Shown: piece by piece, positions 53,279-61,675 of the stretch | Position numbering within the stretch: position 1 is the stretch's first letter | Layout: the number at the start of each line of letters is the position of its first letter | DNA from: Halobacteriovoraceae bacterium | GTDB taxonomy: Bacteria; Bdellovibrionota; Bacteriovoracia; Bacteriovoracales; Bacteriovoracaceae | Assembly: GCA_002711995.1 (NCBI GenBank) | Contig: PASN01000019.1 | Coordinates: 62,001 to 126,000, forward strand | Direction of reading: 5' to 3' | DNA: 64,000 bases | The notes under the pieces: model-generated | Seen by the model: the letters and a program-made list of their open reading frames with translations, nothing else | Databases searched by the model: none | Told to the model about the DNA's origin: nothing | Made by a program: the position numbers and the translations under genes

Positions 53279-54979
53279 CTAGGCCAAAGCAATATCAACC
53301 TTTTTATCGCCCTGAAGATTGCTATTTCCGGGGTTGTATCTATTCGGAGAGATCACATTGTGTGGATCAAGCGCACTCTTAATTAGAGAGCATGTTTTCC
53401 AGTGGATGTGATTGGGATCTAGCTTTTCTATTTGTTGATCAATATTTAAACGGTATGGAATGAAACCAAGCTTTCTTCCTTCTTCAAAAAGCTCATCAAT
53501 GCATGCCTTGGCGGCCTCAACAGACTCTGGATCGTTTTTATTGAAAAGAATAGGGATTGTTGAGTCTATACAGTCGTAATGAAGAACTGTAAGTGTAATC
53601 AACGGCTCTACCTTGTGCTTGGAAGCGACTCTTCTAATGAAATTAATATATTCATTCACTTTGTGGTTTTTCATTGGCACCAATGGCGCGTACCAGAGTA
53701 GACCACAATCATCTTTTGATGGGTTTAATTCCCGGTTTAAATCTGGGGACATGTTTGCATTTTTCCAGTAGGCAAGGGGAAGGGCCATCTGTCTAGGAAT
53801 GCCAAGCATGATCCTGTTCCCTTCTTTTACATTTTCGATATTATGTCTAAGCGTTTTTAATAGGCCAAAAGGAAACGCGCTGCTAACCATATCTCCAATT
53901 TTAAAGAGAAGGCTGTTTGAGAATAAAATTAGGCCTAATGGCCTTGAGAGCTTTTTAATCCGTTTTTTTACAACATCCACCACGCACTCATTGCCGTATA
54001 TGGAGCCAACAATGACCCATTCGGGAAGAAGGTTCTTTTTGGTTAAGGATTTGATTTGTTCTTCACTCAACAGCTTTTGATTGTCGGGCCCGTTTGGATT
54101 CTCTCCATTCATTGCTATTAATCGCCTTTTATCCATTAGGTTTATGGCCGGAACAATTCCTTCAAACTCTGAAAGAGTTTCTCTTATGAAGTCCAATGCA
54201 TCATCTAGTTTAGAATGATCGTTAACCTTAATTGCAAAAGAGGTGAAGTTTTTTGGTTTCTTGGCGAGCCTTATTGTTCCCTCTGTAATGATTGCAAAGC
54301 TAGACTGCGTGAATAACCCTTCCATGTAAGGGCCTAGGCCCCATTTAAAAGTATCGTCCACAAACTTTTCATCGGACATGTCCAGGCCCTTTATGGCGGA
54401 GTGATAAATATAATCTTTTTCATCGGCGCCCCAGAGTTCTGGGTTTGGAATAATTCCCCTTAAAGCGTTAACTGCCATGAAGTGGTCAACATGGGGAGTG
54501 AGTCCGTAGCCTCTCTCTATCGCATTCGCTAACACACTAACTGTTGGACCAGCTCCCGTGGCGGGACACATGTATTCCCATCCATTTTCTTCGAGAAAAT
54601 TGTAAAGTTGTTGCTGAGTCACGCCGGGACCTATGTTTACAAGCCCTAAATCCTTGTCCACTGCGACTATTTTATTCATATGGGATAAGTCTAGGACTAC
54701 AACATCTCTGTTATCGCCATGCCCCACACTGCCATAACCCCAGTTTTTTCCTGAACCTATAGGTTGAATAGAAAAGTCGTGGGCAATGGCCAACTTAATA
54801 AGGGACTTTATGTCTTGAGGCTCAGTTAAAGAAATACTCGCGCACAGAACAGGGTGGGATGATATAGTGTTTTTATTAAAGCTAAATTCTGCACTGCTTC
54901 TATCTAAGATTAGATCTGGTGATAGGTGAGGAAAAGAGTCTGTAAGAAGCTTGATTAGTTTATTCATTAACTTTACCAT
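53279..54979 (-). CDS. FAD-linked oxidase of the vanillyl-alcohol oxidase type
   Basis: The 566-residue protein has a PCMH-type FAD-binding domain: IQPIGSGKNWGYGS, the strand VVVLDLSHMNKIVAVDKD, LVNIGPGVTQQQLYNFLEENG and ATGAGPTVSVLANAIERGYG. A cap domain follows and the chain ends DPHNVISPNRYNPGN, as in p-cresol methylhydroxylase/vanillyl-alcohol oxidase relatives. It oxidises a small, probably aromatic or hydroxylated, substrate; which one is unknown. No signal peptide. ATG codons at 54979 and 54967 are both possible. It is paralogous to the gene at 59157 and divergent from the STAS gene. Confidence 0.82.
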   Translation of the reverse strand: MVKLMNKLIKLLTDSFPHLSPDLILDRSSAEFSFNKNTISSHPVLCASISLTEPQDIKSLIKLAIAHDFSIQPIGSGKNWGYGSVGHGDNRDVVVLDLSHMNKIVAVDKDLGLVNIGPGVTQQQLYNFLEENGWEYMCPATGAGPTVSVLANAIERGYGLTPHVDHFMAVNALRGIIPNPELWGADEKDYIYHSAIKGLDMSDEKFVDDTFKWGLGPYMEGLFTQSSFAIITEGTIRLAKKPKNFTSFAIKVNDHSKLDDALDFIRETLSEFEGIVPAINLMDKRRLIAMNGENPNGPDNQKLLSEEQIKSLTKKNLLPEWVIVGSIYGNECVVDVVKKRIKKLSRPLGLILFSNSLLFKIGDMVSSAFPFGLLKTLRHNIENVKEGNRIMLGIPRQMALPLAYWKNANMSPDLNRELNPSKDDCGLLWYAPLVPMKNHKVNEYINFIRRVASKHKVEPLITLTVLHYDCIDSTIPILFNKNDPESVEAAKACIDELFEEGRKLGFIPYRLNIDQQIEKLDPNHIHWKTCSLIKSALDPHNVISPNRYNPGNSNLQGDKKVDIALA

Positions 54980-55126
54980 TGCTGAGTTGATACTGCTTTG
55001 ATTCTGATCGGATTACTCGGGTATAACTTTAGGTTATTTATTGAGATTTTAAATAAGTGACTAATTTCATTAATTTAGTATAATATTCCTAACTTATTCA
55101 TCTATACCAAAAATCAAGGAATGATT

Positions 55127-55576
55127 ATGGAATTCTCACAAAACGACGCAAATCTTACCTTGGCCATGCCGGGCCCTAGAGTTGATGAAAACTTTGACCC
55201 AGATATAAGTAAAAAGTTTGAAGGTAAGGAAGTGGTATTTGATTTCTCAAATCTAAACCTTATGAATTCAACTGGAATTCGTGAATGGCTTCTACTTTTG
55301 GAAAACCTTAAAGATAGAAAAATTACCTATAAAAACTGTCCCAAAATATTTGTTCTAGTGATGAACATGGTAAAAGGTGTGGTTTCTGAAAACGTGACCG
55401 TGGAAAGTTTTTATGTTCCATTTTACGACCCTGAAACGGATGATGAGATCGATGTTCTCATGAGTCCCGCAGACATTGGGCAAAACCTTGAAGTTCCAGA
55501 ACAGAAAACTAAAGATGGAAGGCCATTGGAGTTCGACGATGTTGCTGAAAAGTACTTTCAATTTCTAAAGATGTAG
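55127..55576 (+). CDS. STAS-like (anti-sigma antagonist type) protein
   Basis: The ATG at 55127 suits the AAGGA site; another ATG lies six bases upstream. Residues 25-85 have the STAS pattern of strand, loop and helix: KEVVFDFSNLNLMNSTGIREWLLLL holds a central serine-threonine pair where such proteins are phosphorylated. The C-terminal 60 residues contain DPETDDEIDVLM and an acidic helix. It lies one base before a membrane SpoIIE phosphatase, so the pair forms a partner-switch-like unit: the phosphatase would dephosphorylate the STAS protein. The cognate anti-sigma kinase is not in the window. Confidence 0.75.
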   Translation: MEFSQNDANLTLAMPGPRVDENFDPDISKKFEGKEVVFDFSNLNLMNSTGIREWLLLLENLKDRKITYKNCPKIFVLVMNMVKGVVSENVTVESFYVPFYDPETDDEIDVLMSPADIGQNLEVPEQKTKDGRPLEFDDVAEKYFQFLKM

Positions 55577-55577
55577 A

Positions 55578-57284
55578 ATGAAGTTAAAAGTTAAGTTTCA
55601 AATCCTAGTACTCACTGCCCTGACTGTGCTCGGGGCGATTTCTATCTATAACACCATAAATATTTACATTGACGATAAAAAAGCATTTGTAAGCGAAGTA
55701 GCCCTAAATTCAATGGCGTCTTCTAAAAAGCAAGTCTTGTTTTATGAATTATTGGTTAACGGCATTTTCACCAAATTTGAAGCAGAATTGGCATCATCTG
55801 GAAAACCAGGAGAACTTAGTTCAAAGCAAGACCTTATTAAGTGCATCTATAAATTTAACAAAAACCAGCTGACTGCCAAGAACTGTCAATCAGACACAGG
55901 AACTTTTGATTTAAAAGAGTTGAATGAGGCCGTTATTCAAAATAAGGGCAAACTTGTGGATGGCATTTCGCTTTTGGATGGGAAATACGTCGCTTATACG
56001 AACTCAAAGGCGCCGGTCAAATTTGTTTCCATTTCACTAGTGTCCGAGTTTGTCGCCTTTACTGTTGATAATTTAGGCGCCCATGGATTCGAGTTTAGAA
56101 ATGGGGAGATGTTTCTCGCTGATGGGGTTTCTGAGAGTGCTGCCAAATTGGCAAAGGGTGAGAGCATTGAACTTAAAGAGACTGAAGATAGCTTTATTGC
56201 AAGCTTTAAACTGACTGATTTAGGTCTCAGTCAAGTTAAGGTTATTGAGAAGTCCCTAATGCTTAGATCTCTTTACACGTTTATAGAGACTGGTGTCCAA
56301 ATCACCCTTATCCCCATTGGTGTGTTTATCGTCATAAGCCTTTTTTGGGTAAATAAGATCGTCAACCCTCTTAAAACTTTGACAGCTATTACTGAGAAGA
56401 TCTCAAAAGGTGATTTCACAAATAAAGTTAGCATCAAAACCAAAGATGAGTTTAAAACCCTTGGGGACTCTTTCAACTACATGCAGGATCAACTCGCAAC
56501 CTATATCGAAGGTGAAAAAGAAAAGGTTCGCCTTGAAAAGGAAATGCAGGTAACCAAAGTTATTCAAGATTCTTTTTTCCAAGACAATGAATATGTAGGC
56601 AAGGAACTTCAGGTTAGTGGCTTTTACAAGGCCGCCAGCGAGTGCGGGGGAGATTGGTGGGGTGTAACAAACATCTCCGGCAAGGACTTTATTCTCATAG
56701 GGGACGCCACTGGTCACGGGGCACCTGCGGCGATGATCACTGCTGTAGTTTATAGCTGCATTAAAACAATTAAAAACACAGTTGGAAAAAATGAGAGTTT
56801 GACTCCCGCGGATGTTTTAACTCATCTCAACCACGCAATAAATAATGATTCTCACAATTACAACATGACCTTCTTTGTATGCTCATGGGAATCAGACTCA
56901 CGAACCCTTGAGTTTGCCAATGCAAGCCATAATCCTCCATTCCTTCTACACTTGAACTCCGGTAAAACAAGACAAGACATTAGGCCCTTGTCTGGTGATA
57001 TTGGAAAGAGACTGGGAGAGGCGGCAGACTCAACTTATAAGAATGAAAAAGTTGCTGTCAAAGAGGGAAAACACATTCTTTTTGGATACACCGATGGCAT
57101 CACAGAGCTAGAGAATGTCGATGGAAAGCAATACGGAGATGGTCGACTGATTCGAACCTTTTTGAAACTGGTAAAAGAAGATGTGGACCAGTTTGGAGAA
57201 AAACTCGCCAAAAATTTGGATGACTACCAAGGCGAGATGGAGTTGCTTGATGATGTCACTTTCTTCAAGGCAATTATTGGATAA
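55578..57284 (+). CDS. Membrane-anchored SpoIIE-type (PP2C) serine phosphatase
   Basis: The 568-residue protein has an N-terminal membrane helix (8-28), a periplasmic sensor region (to about 230), a second helix (VQITLIPIGVFIVISLFWV), a HAMP domain (KIVNPLKTLTAITEKISKGDF) and a SpoIIE phosphatase domain from about 330. The metal-binding aspartates are in ECGGDWWGV, LIGDATGHGAPAAM and LFGYTDGITELEN, as in RsbU-type phosphatases. It would relay an envelope signal to the STAS protein encoded upstream. The next gene starts with no gap, so all three are one operon. Confidence 0.92.
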   Translation: MKLKVKFQILVLTALTVLGAISIYNTINIYIDDKKAFVSEVALNSMASSKKQVLFYELLVNGIFTKFEAELASSGKPGELSSKQDLIKCIYKFNKNQLTAKNCQSDTGTFDLKELNEAVIQNKGKLVDGISLLDGKYVAYTNSKAPVKFVSISLVSEFVAFTVDNLGAHGFEFRNGEMFLADGVSESAAKLAKGESIELKETEDSFIASFKLTDLGLSQVKVIEKSLMLRSLYTFIETGVQITLIPIGVFIVISLFWVNKIVNPLKTLTAITEKISKGDFTNKVSIKTKDEFKTLGDSFNYMQDQLATYIEGEKEKVRLEKEMQVTKVIQDSFFQDNEYVGKELQVSGFYKAASECGGDWWGVTNISGKDFILIGDATGHGAPAAMITAVVYSCIKTIKNTVGKNESLTPADVLTHLNHAINNDSHNYNMTFFVCSWESDSRTLEFANASHNPPFLLHLNSGKTRQDIRPLSGDIGKRLGEAADSTYKNEKVAVKEGKHILFGYTDGITELENVDGKQYGDGRLIRTFLKLVKEDVDQFGEKLAKNLDDYQGEMELLDDVTFFKAIIG

Positions 57285-59087
57285 ATGATAAAACTCGAAA
57301 AAATTGATCTTCTATCCATCAGTATTGCAGTATTATTCATAGCTGCTGGAGCGCTATTTAGCTTGGATGAGGAACAAGAGCACTTTCAAAAATCTCAACC
57401 CGTAGCCGAAGTCTCTCAAAAGAAAGGGGAGGTTAAACTAGGCCATTCCAGAACTCTTGTTTGGACAGAGGCAGCCGAAGGATCTCTTCTTGAAGAGGGA
57501 GACAAGGGATACACCAAAACTAATTCTTCTGTTGAACTGCAATTCTCTGATTTTAATATCAATGTCGCACCAAACTCTCTAGTTCTTGTGGAACAAAGCA
57601 ATAATCAAGAATTAGAGTTGAATCTGGTCAAGGGTAGGATCCAGGTATCCAACACCAAGAAAAAAACAAAGTCTAATAAGTCCAAAAGACGCAAAGTCAA
57701 AAAGGTTAGCAAAAAGCTAAATGTTGCAGGAACCAGCGTTGAGCTCTCCAATAAAAATGAAAGTGTGATCACAGTGGAGAATATTGAGAAGAAAGTGTTT
57801 TTCTCCCAGGATAAAGGGGAGAGTACTGTTGGAAACAGTATCAAGCTGACTCGGAATGAATCCTTAAAAAAGGATTTAGAGAAAAAGGCACAGGCCATTT
57901 TAGAAAGACTCAAAGCAGAAGAGTTGAAGAGGCAAAAAGAAATTGCAAAAAAGGAACAGCTAAGAAAGCTTGAAGAAGAGAGACGAAGAAAAGAGATGGA
58001 ACGGCTTGCAGCGCTCGAACTAGAAAGGCAAAAAGAGCTCGAGCGACTGGCCGAAATTGAGAGGAAAAAAGAAGAAGAAAGGCTAAGAAAAGAGGAGCTT
58101 GAAAGGCAGAAGAGGCTAGCTTTAATAGAAAGGAAGAAGCGCCTTGAGCGAGAGAGGGAAAAAAGAAGGCTTGAGCTTGAGAGAAAAAAAGAAGAAGAAA
58201 GACTTAGAAAAGAAGAGCTTGAAAGACAGGAGAGACTCGCGTTAATAGAAAGAGAAAAACGTGAGGAGCGAGAGAGGGAAAGAAGAAGACTTGAGCTTGA
58301 AAGGAAGAAAAAGCTGGCCGCCCAAAAGGAAAGGGAGCGAAAAGAGAGACTTAGAAAAGAGCAGGAAAAGGCAAGGATTGAACAGGAAAGACTCAAGGAA
58401 CTAGAGGAGAAAAGGCTGGCCCTGGCCCAGGCCATAAAAAAGAAAAAAGAGAGAGTTGAAAGAATTGCCAAGCGCAGGGAAAGGTTGGTTCCTGGAACAT
58501 TAAAATTTAACAACATATTCATGAACTATGGCCTTCGAAGCAATGAACTTGACGAAAGCGGTGGAGATTTCAATTTTACCGGAGCTGCATTGGAGCTTGG
58601 TGCCCAAAGTATATGTACAAAGTGTTATAAAGGCCTTGATTACTCGCTTGAGGCATCCCTTGAAATCTTTGAAGTTATTAGCACTGACACTTCAGGAGAT
58701 AATAAGACTCAAAGGCCAGTTGATTTAAACTCAAGCGTCTCTGTGAAGCTCAAGGGAGGACTGCGAGCCATTTTAGGCCTCAAGTACAGCTCGATTCTTA
58801 ATATTGAAAATGATGACCTTAAAGCAGCTTCCAGGGGCAGTCTTCCTTTGGGAATAGGTTATTTTAAAAATACCGAGGACTGGTTTGGCTCCATCTCGTA
58901 TACGGGGGACTACCTTGTAGGGATTAAGAGCTCCAATTTAAACCTCGATGTTGAGTATCGCCTGTCATGTGTATTCATAGAGAGAGAGTGCGGACTATAT
59001 GGGCAGTTTAGAAGTTATAGCTTCTCAGATGGTGATCTGAAATACTCGGGTAATAGGTCCTCTGTAGGCGCCAGGCTGTTTTGGTAA
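57285..59087 (+). CDS. FecR-like domain protein with a very long charged helix and a beta-rich C-terminus
   Basis: The 600-residue protein has an unusual layout. One membrane helix (about 8-27, ISIAVLFIAAGALFSL) leads to a FecR-like beta domain (about 35-185; VSQKKGEVKLG, LEEGDKGYTKTNSSVELQF) interrupted by a Lys/Arg-rich stretch (126-148). Residues 193-401 are an uninterrupted E/R/K-rich helix, about 31 nm if straight, with two 40-residue tandem units. Residues 403-600 are beta-rich, with two cysteine pairs, and end GARLFW, the aromatic ending of outer-membrane barrels. It could span from inner to outer membrane (inference). It follows the SpoIIE gene with no gap. Confidence 0.85.
   Translation: MIKLEKIDLLSISIAVLFIAAGALFSLDEEQEHFQKSQPVAEVSQKKGEVKLGHSRTLVWTEAAEGSLLEEGDKGYTKTNSSVELQFSDFNINVAPNSLVLVEQSNNQELELNLVKGRIQVSNTKKKTKSNKSKRRKVKKVSKKLNVAGTSVELSNKNESVITVENIEKKVFFSQDKGESTVGNSIKLTRNESLKKDLEKKAQAILERLKAEELKRQKEIAKKEQLRKLEEERRRKEMERLAALELERQKELERLAEIERKKEEERLRKEELERQKRLALIERKKRLEREREKRRLELERKKEEERLRKEELERQERLALIEREKREERERERRRLELERKKKLAAQKERERKERLRKEQEKARIEQERLKELEEKRLALAQAIKKKKERVERIAKRRERLVPGTLKFNNIFMNYGLRSNELDESGGDFNFTGAALELGAQSICTKCYKGLDYSLEASLEIFEVISTDTSGDNKTQRPVDLNSSVSVKLKGGLRAILGLKYSSILNIENDDLKAASRGSLPLGIGYFKNTEDWFGSISYTGDYLVGIKSSNLNLDVEYRLSCVFIERECGLYGQFRSYSFSDGDLKYSGNRSSVGARLFW
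58061..58300 (+). repeat. Two tandem 120-bp units in the charged-helix region
   Basis: 58061-58180 and 58181-58300 align without gaps. Each encodes 40 residues beginning ERKKEEERLRKEELERQ and then RLALIER. A partial third unit (KRKK-like) follows. The DNA differs at scattered third positions, so the duplication is not very recent. Confidence 0.85.
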
Positions 59088-59156
59088 CTTAATAAATAAG
59101 TCTCAAAAAACATCTTTATATTCCGATAGGTTGTAAAACTTTATAAGGTGCAACCA

Positions 59157-60689
59157 ATGGAAAAGACTCTTCAAGATTTTTATTTCAAGACATACGTATA
59201 CGAAAATGTCACTAATTACGGCACTAAGAATTTACAAGAAGTAATTCCTGAAGACTTGGAAGAGCTTCAGGAGATAGTTCAAATCGCAATTAGGGACAAC
59301 ACTAGAATCTATCCTGTAAGCACTGGCTTTAATTGGGGGATGGGTTCCAAAATCCCTGTTGATAGAAAAAGTATTGTAATTAACTTATCAAAACTAAACA
59401 AGATTTTAGAATACGACGAGAAAAATGGCGTCGTAGTTTTAGAACCAGGGGTAACCCAGGAACAGCTTTCAGACTTTTTAAAAGAGAAAGGATCTCCCTT
59501 CTACCTTGATGTAACAGGATCCTCCAAGGAGACCAGTGTTGTGGGAAACACCCTTGAAAGAGGTATCTCCTACAACTCTTTGCGAGTGGAAAGTGTTATG
59601 GGGCTTGAGGTTTTAACGGGAAAGGGTGACTTCTTAAAGACTGGAAACTGGCGTTTGGAGAACACAAAGACAAAGCATAGTTATAAGTTTGGCGTTGGCG
59701 CCGATCTAACAGGGCTTTTCTTTCAATCAAATTTTGGGATTGTTACTAAGATGGCCTTTAAGTTAAAAAGGTTTCAAGAGGCCTATTACTCTGTTCAGCT
59801 TAAGTTTAAAAGCTTGGAGGATGTGTCCAATTGCCTTGATGTCTACTCAGAGCTTTTTGAAGAAGGAACCATTAACTCAATATTTCATATTGCCAATACT
59901 GAGCGCGCCCAAGGGGCGGTTGTTCCTTTCATGCGTAAAGTTTTAAAAGAAAATGGGTGCGATCATGGAGAAGAAAGGGCAAAAGACCTTTTCATGAAGG
60001 TTATCAATTCTCCTTGGGTTGCTTCAGGTATTATTTGTGGAAATAATGACGAGGCAAAGTACAAGGTCAAGAGATTAAAAAGAAAGCTCAAGCGGTATGC
60101 CAAGATCGAAATTATGAATGTAAAATTCATAGAAAGAGTTTTTAAAATTTTAAGTCCTTTTAAAAAACTGGGTATATACAATGTTCTTCTTGGCACCAAG
60201 CCTTTTAGATTTTTGTACTTTGGCGAAGCAACAAACGCGGCCTTGGGAAGTGTTCTAAATCACGATACCTTTTTAAAGCATGAGAAGCTAGCTGAGATGG
60301 TGGATGGTGCGGAAAAGGGTTTTTCGTACTGCCTACCGATAACAGACCTATCTAAACAATCATGTTTAGAAATGGTGGAGATTATCAAGACTACCGCTAA
60401 AGAGTATTCTTTGGATCCTTCCATTACACTTAATCCGCTTCTGGCCAACGTTCTTGAAGCGGTGGTAAGTGTGGAATATCCACGAGAAGATTCTAAAAAG
60501 GCGCGGGAGTGTGTGCGCCTTATGCAAGAAAGGTTGAATAGAGAAGGTCACTACAGTTACAGAACTAATATCAAAGACATGGATCTCTATTTTTCTGATA
60601 AAAATTATTTGAACTATCTAAGAGAAGTTAAGAAGGCCTTTGATCCAAATGGCCTTATTTCTCCCGGTAGGTATTTGCCCGAAAGATAA
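59157..60689 (+). CDS. FAD-linked oxidase of the vanillyl-alcohol oxidase type
   Basis: The ATG at 59157 has AAGGTG upstream; the in-frame GTG at 59148 is part of that site. The 510-residue protein has an FAD-binding PCMH domain: IYPVSTGFNWGMGS, SIVINLSKLNKILEYDE, VVVLEPGVTQEQLSDFLKEKG and TSVVGNTLERGISY. It ends AFDPNGLISPGRYLPER. It is a paralogue of the gene at 53279-54979; both lack signal peptides. Substrate unknown, probably a small hydroxylated or aromatic compound. It follows the FecR-like gene by 70 bp and may be cotranscribed. A weak hairpin (60695-60710) follows. Confidence 0.82.
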   Translation: MEKTLQDFYFKTYVYENVTNYGTKNLQEVIPEDLEELQEIVQIAIRDNTRIYPVSTGFNWGMGSKIPVDRKSIVINLSKLNKILEYDEKNGVVVLEPGVTQEQLSDFLKEKGSPFYLDVTGSSKETSVVGNTLERGISYNSLRVESVMGLEVLTGKGDFLKTGNWRLENTKTKHSYKFGVGADLTGLFFQSNFGIVTKMAFKLKRFQEAYYSVQLKFKSLEDVSNCLDVYSELFEEGTINSIFHIANTERAQGAVVPFMRKVLKENGCDHGEERAKDLFMKVINSPWVASGIICGNNDEAKYKVKRLKRKLKRYAKIEIMNVKFIERVFKILSPFKKLGIYNVLLGTKPFRFLYFGEATNAALGSVLNHDTFLKHEKLAEMVDGAEKGFSYCLPITDLSKQSCLEMVEIIKTTAKEYSLDPSITLNPLLANVLEAVVSVEYPREDSKKARECVRLMQERLNREGHYSYRTNIKDMDLYFSDKNYLNYLREVKKAFDPNGLISPGRYLPER

Positions 60690-60760
60690 TTAGCTGCCAT
60701 TGAATTGGCAATCGCTTTTATGTTTTAAAGAGTAGGGCCTAATTGGCAAGGGAGTCCTCA

Positions 60761-61675
60761 TTGGCCGTTAGTTTAAAAAAGAATCTCTTGAAGACAGATC
60801 AAAAAATAGCTTCTCATACTGAGCAGTTTAAGTGTCTTTATACCAGTAGTGCCGCATTGCTTGCGCGCATGAAAGAGTGTGGTTTCAAACTTGAAGCTAG
60901 GGAGGAGCTCTTTCGAATTGTTCATACTCTCAAGGGAAATGTGGGCGCTTTCTATATGGATGATCTAGCAGAGTATCTGCATGAAGTTGAAGCAGAACTT
61001 GCTAGCAAGTCTTATCCTGAAGTTTTAGAAATTATAAACATTGTGGAAAAGACATTTGCGGATGTCATCGCTAGAAATTCATCATACTTAAACCTAAATG
61101 ATTGGAAACCTTCTCTACCTAGTGAAGGATATGAAAGGCCTTCTCGTGCCTTAGTCTTTCTTAGTGACTATGCTCTTAATCTAAGCAAAGAGGCCAATAA
61201 GAAATTAAATCCAATTTCTATAGAGGACTTCGGTGTTATAATAAGAAAAGATTTTTTACAAGAATTTCAGCTCTATGCGACTCATTTAATAGGAAACAGC
61301 ATAGGCCATGGTATTGAAGATGCTCTTGAAATGGAGAGGTTGGGAAAAGAACCACAAGGCAGCATCCACATTTCTTTTAAGGAAAATAAAAAAAATCTTC
61401 TGATCTGCTTTTCCGATGATGGACGAGGCCTTGATTTATCTTTGTTTAAAGGACATTTAGTTAGTCAAAATAATTCAGTTGTTGAAATTCCCAACCACCT
61501 TTTTCAAAATAGGTTGAGTGGAAGCAAACGGATCTCCAAGACAAGTGGAAGAGGTGTGGGAGTTAGTGCTTTTCTTGAATTTATTCATAAGCGTGGGGGC
61601 GAAGTGAAAGTTTTCACAAGCACTGGATCGTTTTGTAGATTTGAAATCAAATTGTTCAACTTTTTCGAAGAATAA
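60761..61675 (+). CDS. Minimal CheA-like protein (HPt plus kinase ATPase domain)
   Basis: The TTG at 60761 sits six bases behind AAGGGAG (60748-60754), so it is preferred to the TTG at 60743. The 304-residue product has an N-terminal HPt domain with His55 in RIVHTLKGNVGAFYMDDL. A CheA-type ATPase domain follows: LYATHLIGNSIGHGIEDAL (N box), FSDDGRGLD (G1) and TSGRGVGVSAFLEFIHKRGGEV (G2). The dimerisation and CheW-like domains of CheA are missing. It may be a compact phosphorelay kinase or act with other partners. No receiver or CheY gene is adjacent. Confidence 0.8.
   Translation: MAVSLKKNLLKTDQKIASHTEQFKCLYTSSAALLARMKECGFKLEAREELFRIVHTLKGNVGAFYMDDLAEYLHEVEAELASKSYPEVLEIINIVEKTFADVIARNSSYLNLNDWKPSLPSEGYERPSRALVFLSDYALNLSKEANKKLNPISIEDFGVIIRKDFLQEFQLYATHLIGNSIGHGIEDALEMERLGKEPQGSIHISFKENKKNLLICFSDDGRGLDLSLFKGHLVSQNNSVVEIPNHLFQNRLSGSKRISKTSGRGVGVSAFLEFIHKRGGEVKVFTSTGSFCRFEIKLFNFFEE

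Follow-up and report, generated by a model that had tools for sequence, protein, structure and literature searches.

The window analysed in this work, a stretch of 64,000 nucleotides from a Halobacteriovoraceae bacterium, encodes a 600 amino acid (aa) protein in which a tandem repeat lies within a long, highly charged helix, and the locus raises the questions of whether this repeat is a length-variable element, as the initial annotation claimed, and of what a protein of this architecture might do. The reading that we prefer, to which we assign a probability of about one half, is that the protein is an envelope-spanning tether, a divergent member of a group of FecR-spacer-barrel proteins, whose rod couples the outer membrane to a FecR/SpoIIE/STAS switch and in which the duplication is old and fixed. 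The features on which the analysis is based are as follows:

55121-55576, forward strand: STAS-like gene, the first of a three-gene run (BLAST to the STAS genes of relatives, E 1e-14 to 1e-31)
55578-57284, forward strand: membrane HAMP-SpoIIE (PP2C-type) phosphatase (Pfam SpoIIE E 1.9e-29, HAMP 5.8e-11)
57285-59087, forward strand: 600-aa protein with membrane helix, FecR domain, charged helix and beta-rich C-terminus (open reading frame list, Pfam, single-sequence AlphaFold2)
57309-57362, forward strand: N-terminal hydrophobic helix, residues about 9-26, probable inner-membrane anchor (prediction, alignment)
57513-57776, forward strand: FecR domain PF04773, residues 77-164 (Pfam E 9.1e-6, 26.5 bits, cut-off 24)
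57861-58478, forward strand: single uninterrupted predicted helix, residues 193-398 (AlphaFold2)
58057-58176, forward strand: repeat unit 1, 40 codons
58177-58296, forward strand: repeat unit 2, 40 codons, 84% DNA identity to unit 1
58506-59084, forward strand: beta-rich C-terminal domain, residues 408-600, ending in GARLFW, probable outer-membrane barrel (strand alternation, aromatic end)

The three genes of the run (viz. STAS, SpoIIE, and tether) are co-directional and separated by 1 and 0 bases, the stop codon of SpoIIE abutting the ATG of the tether gene; the STAS-like gene also has a weak Pfam STAS-like match that falls below the cut-off. Proteins of related design are found in the bacterial family to which the window belongs, where tethers of 700-1060 residues combine an anchored FecR domain, an Ig-like spacer and a C-terminal barrel-like domain. 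From 61 loci we retained 50 full-length tethers, i.e., those in which one open reading frame (ORF) matched both end profiles, leaving out 11 loci (the window, L067, L071, L072, L073, L074, L075, L076, L106, L136, and L137); the counts given below are of proteins, of which several belong to related species and two to a single genome (G079), and they are not independent events. The pairing of the FecR tether with SpoIIE is conserved in these relatives: SpoIIE is divergently adjacent in 48 of the 50, and the remaining two (L118 and L132) lie at contig ends with under 700 bases upstream. A STAS gene is located downstream of SpoIIE in the relatives' loci, and the window tether gene shares with them the adjacent STAS and SpoIIE genes, although it is co-directional with SpoIIE where theirs are divergent. 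In L068, the single locus scanned for this by Pfam, a PAS histidine kinase with a receiver domain and a response regulator also lie downstream of SpoIIE.

The homology of the window protein to these tethers lies in its anchor and FecR domain. The N-terminal 196 aa alone have FecR matches (E<=1e-3) in 23 of 59 genomes, its own included, and the single-sequence matches in the 22 foreign genomes range from E 3.5e-9 to 1e-3, with a best foreign match of 2.3e-12 in a wider set; profile A2, which includes the window protein, is not counted here as evidence of homology. The closest N-terminal relatives include ORFs in which no barrel is recognised, the closest of all (G067) among them. Both genomes of the same genus encode the canonical tether with its Ig-like spacer (L081 and L082) and lack the window locus, their SpoIIE is 33% identical to that of the window, and the FAD gene that lies beside the window tether is absent from both; for these reasons the window operon may have an outside origin or may have diverged rapidly. 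Two FAD-linked oxidase genes, 27% identical to each other, flank the three-gene run on its two sides (59148-60689, forward strand; 53279-54979, reverse strand). Two genes downstream of the tether gene is an Hpt plus HATPase kinase (60743-61675, forward strand), and a similar kinase adjoins FecR proteins in L072, L075, and L076.

The N-terminus of the window protein is probably an inner-membrane anchor: AlphaFold2 predicts a helix at residues 9-35, and this helix aligns with the anchors of the relatives. An AGA motif at residues 21-23, directly after the hydrophobic stretch, leaves cleavage possible, and it is the point in favour of another reading, in which a signal peptide is removed from the N-terminus and the protein belongs to the outer membrane, its helix and FecR domain reaching back to the peptidoglycan or to the SpoIIE sensor, so that the outer membrane would be tethered to a partner other than the inner one. 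We regard this reading as doubtful, at perhaps half the weight of the tether, since such a motif is found in the N-terminal helices of only 2 of the 50 relatives by the same pattern (8 of 50 in a loose A.A test) and since 35 of the 50 have in common with the window protein an aspartate in the n-region, where this residue is unusual for a signal peptide. The FecR domain which follows the anchor scores 26.5 bits against the PF04773 cut-off of 24, and its region of the AlphaFold2 model has a pLDDT below 50.

Between the FecR domain and the C-terminus, where the family tethers have Ig-like domains, the spacer of the window protein is a charged helix. The predicted helix comprises 206 aa, or about 31 nm at 0.15 nm per residue, within a stretch of 219 aa that is charged and free of Pro and Gly; 65% of the helix is Glu, Arg, Lys, or Asp, and its net charge is +25. 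No heptad periodicity of hydrophobic residues was detected in it, and with so high a charge content this makes a single charged helix likelier than a coiled coil. With its composition, its lack of heptads and its predicted helix the segment is a candidate single alpha-helix (SAH) domain, a class that is defined also by stability as a monomer; a PDB sequence search with the charged helix returned no match. The segment could nevertheless be a coiled coil, or a charged segment that binds nucleic acid or protein, with a repeat that is merely compositional, as helix can be overpredicted when charged repeats are modelled from one sequence and a net charge of this size could bind teichoic-acid-like polymers, nucleic acid, or peptidoglycan. 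This seems to us unlikely, the hydrophobic residues having no heptad period and the similarity of the repeat units lying far above that of shuffled codons: without gaps and over 120 nt, the helix matches itself best at offset 120 (0.842), and the maxima were 0.583 in 1000 codon shuffles (0 of 1000 reaching the observed value) and 0.608 in 500 shuffles of four-codon blocks. A long charged helix was found in the window protein only; in 100 other FecR-family ORFs no charged stretch exceeds 57 aa. No orthologue with the charged helix was found in 129 genomes of the family and order, in 59 relatives, or in contig scans, the last of which yielded nothing related to the tether and, for SpoIIE, a single fragment.

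The beta-rich C-terminal domain has an alternating-hydrophobicity score of 11.26, compared with 9.44 for the 95th percentile of 366 other ORFs and a mean of 9.12 for the barrels of the relatives. Its last residue is aromatic (tryptophan), and its last ten residues are outscored by 33 of 474 background ORFs; an AlphaFold2 model of the C-terminus alone has a pLDDT of 29 and is unusable as evidence. Profile A3, which was built from the relatives' barrels with the window protein excluded, finds matches in 55 of 368 genomes of the phylum, 54 of them in the window's bacterial family, and has no match in a PDB sequence search. In the window's own genome it does not match the window C-terminus even at E<=10, and a direct comparison gives just 4.5 bits, so that on sequence grounds this domain may be a barrel unrelated to those of the relatives, or may be no barrel. 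We infer both its identity as a barrel and the anchoring of the protein in the two membranes. The bridging of the membranes by the helix, which had been suggested at the outset, is plausible because the long helix sits between the probable anchor with its FecR domain and the beta-rich C-terminus; the variability in length that had been attached to this suggestion is unsupported.

The repeat itself is a tandem of exactly two copies, head-to-tail, gap-free, and with the 120-bp unit length that had been described for it; it is the same array, in another phase, that had been placed at 58061-58300, and Tandem Repeats Finder reports it in the window at 58057-58313 with a period of 120 and 2.1 copies. 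In a codon-framed comparison the units encode 40-residue blocks, as annotated, of which 35 residues (87.5%) are identical. They are located inside the one long predicted helix, for which block pLDDT values of up to 95 were obtained, and the earlier figure of about 6 nm of helix per unit holds (40 residues x 0.15 nm = 6.0 nm). The identity of the units has sharp boundaries, falling to background level directly outside them on both sides, and no third copy or remnant is detectable in either flank of the helix. The best 60-nt matches of the flanks to the repeat (35/60) are no better than what 10/60 and 18/60 codon shuffles attained, and more than two copies were rejected on this ground. Smaller internal repeats (families D2-D6) are short, and we treat them as composition.

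The two units have 19 differing bases out of 120, and their longest common identical run is 17 nt. By codon, 23 are identical, 12 carry synonymous changes and 5 non-synonymous changes, giving (NG86) a dN of 0.07 and a dS of 1.11, the latter a rough value because it is based on 40 codons (bootstrap 95% 0.50-3.0). As dS is about 1.1, dN is 0.07, and the shared run is no longer than 17 nt, the duplication looks old, with its protein sequence kept, and does not look like a slipping array; its age is an estimate from the divergence of the units. RecA recombination needs some 20-30 identical bp, and the number of differences and the shortness of the run make frequent loss of a unit by this route unlikely. 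The description of the repeat as length-variable is therefore unsupported, and a variable repeat number was rejected, the units being too diverged and no second genome with the helix having been found. A live length-tuning element, in which gain and loss of copies in the population would alter the reach of the helix, is mechanically possible given the helix and the exact in-frame unit, and it has a model in Escherichia coli tolA, where the repeat number varies among strains and RecA-dependent contractions reach up to 6.9e-5 (PMC3477136), but with just two diverged copies, a dS near 1.1, no third copy or remnant, and no second helix-bearing genome found for comparison, it is very improbable for this protein. 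The duplication would instead represent a single, ancient lengthening of the helix that selection has maintained ever since, with no active length switch, and as one old lengthening event the repeat carries little weight by itself.

Spacer length does vary among the relatives, and for the family as a whole the general idea of a variable spacer thus receives some support, apparently through domain number and not through the repeat. The spacers of the 50 tethers fall into two classes, of 337-427 residues (15 proteins) and 536-653 residues (35 proteins), and the difference of about 200 residues between the classes would correspond to two Ig-like domains, a number estimated from length. Pfam Ig-type matches were obtained in 2 of 5 tethers scanned (L065 and L068).

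The tether that we favour would start from a helix in the inner membrane, have its FecR domain in the periplasm, extend through a stiff, charged helix some 31 nm long in place of the Ig-like spacer run of the family tethers, and end in a beta domain in the outer membrane. The rod would link the FecR domain, which lies beside the SpoIIE phosphatase, to the position of, or the load on, the outer membrane, and the phosphatase would in turn set STAS phosphorylation (partner switching); this mechanism and the direction of the signal are deduced from anatomy and gene order. If this is correct, both membranes are joined by a single polypeptide that is anchored in each, has a rigid rod whose length can be counted, and lies next to its own phosphatase switch, which would provide a clean system for asking how envelope spacing is sensed, and the relatives would constitute natural spacer variants in two length classes and two materials.

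Among known systems, the FecR-Ig-barrel tethers of the family (e.g., L065 and L081) share with the window protein a membrane helix at the N-terminus, a FecR domain, a long spacer, a C-terminal beta domain that ends in an aromatic residue, and STAS/SpoIIE neighbours, but the window protein differs from them in that its putative barrel is not detectably related, its gene is co-directional, and it is without the internal site described below. The FecR domain is also shared with FecR of the FecIRA system, where it carries outer-membrane signals inward; in the window protein about 8 residues precede the membrane helix, which leaves no cytoplasmic anti-sigma domain, and the neighbour is a phosphatase and not a sigma factor. 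SlpA and OmpM each combine a barrel in the outer membrane with a long stalk in the periplasm, a build that the window protein would share. Both of them bind peptidoglycan, and neither is known to us to have an inner-membrane helix, a FecR domain, or a connection with SpoIIE. Domain II of TolA from gamma-proteobacteria resembles the proposed build of the window protein in its inner-membrane anchor, its charged helix that crosses the periplasm, and its in-frame helix repeats. The TolA helix is Ala-rich and motor-driven, and to our knowledge TolA has no FecR domain or barrel. The window protein has no match to a TolA domain in Pfam or NCBIfam, and no tol genes adjoin it; tolA repeats vary in number, and the window repeat, observed in a single genome, has two copies. 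The spacer material of TolA switches between proline-rich and helical forms (PMC12204202), and the change from Ig-like domains to helix in the window protein resembles it. Signalling by the rod is proposed by analogy with the distance dependence of Lpp and RcsF in E. coli, where spacer lengths decide whether a signal crosses the periplasm (PMC5736177); these, unlike the window protein, are separate lipoproteins with no repeat and with another signalling system.

Most of the tethers of the relatives (loci L064-L083 and L100-L139, e.g., L070, L082, and L114) also contain an internal site that resembles a signal peptidase I site. In a first, looser test the site was weakly indicated (35 of 50 proteins, 21.7 expected in shuffles); under a tighter pattern, a short hydrophobic stretch followed by A-x-A, which was set post hoc after the hits were known, it is present in 44 of 50 tethers as against 4.25 expected. 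An example is LLNYLISKAHA, and the site precedes the last Ig-like domains, its median distance to the C-terminus being 392 residues. The tighter pattern is found in 34 of 38 proteins that were not profile seeds and, as controls, in 2 of 50 N-terminal anchors and in 4 of 41 other FecR-family ORFs, one of which (L149) is a truncated tether. The window protein does not have the site. In the relatives, either signal peptidase I cleaves at this site or a fusion has left it behind as a scar. A wider proposal, which we put forward tentatively, is that the family tethers are two-membrane polyproteins, made from one gene as a FecR-Ig half in the inner membrane and an Ig-barrel half in the outer membrane, that would be cut at the conserved internal site by signal peptidase I after export, with the halves reporting on the envelope to the SpoIIE/STAS switch; the window lineage would have lost the cut and had its Ig run replaced by the 31-nm helix, resulting in an uncut rod that joins both membranes. 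Proteins of this kind are not described in the parts available to us of the literature on FecR with SpoIIE, Bdellovibrio, Bacteriovorax, or periplasm-spanning Ig domains and on internal signal peptides.

Some further observations concern the relatives. The tether of G019 (L067:6438-9204, reverse strand) is split into two ORFs at the position of the site, with an overlap of a few bases, and the second ORF begins with its own signal-peptide-like stretch. In the window's own genome (C16), L136:5416-6435 (reverse strand) encodes a stand-alone protein of 340 aa that begins like a signal peptide, contains a single Ig-like stretch, and has a barrel akin to those of the relatives' tethers. Genes that carry long collagen-like G-x-y runs are located near the tether in 8 of the 20 loci L064-L083 (viz. 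L064, L065, L066, L068, L077, L079, L080, and L083); the collagen-like gene of L065 has a Pfam Collagen match, and these genes often adjoin a secreted-looking protein of 344-397 aa.
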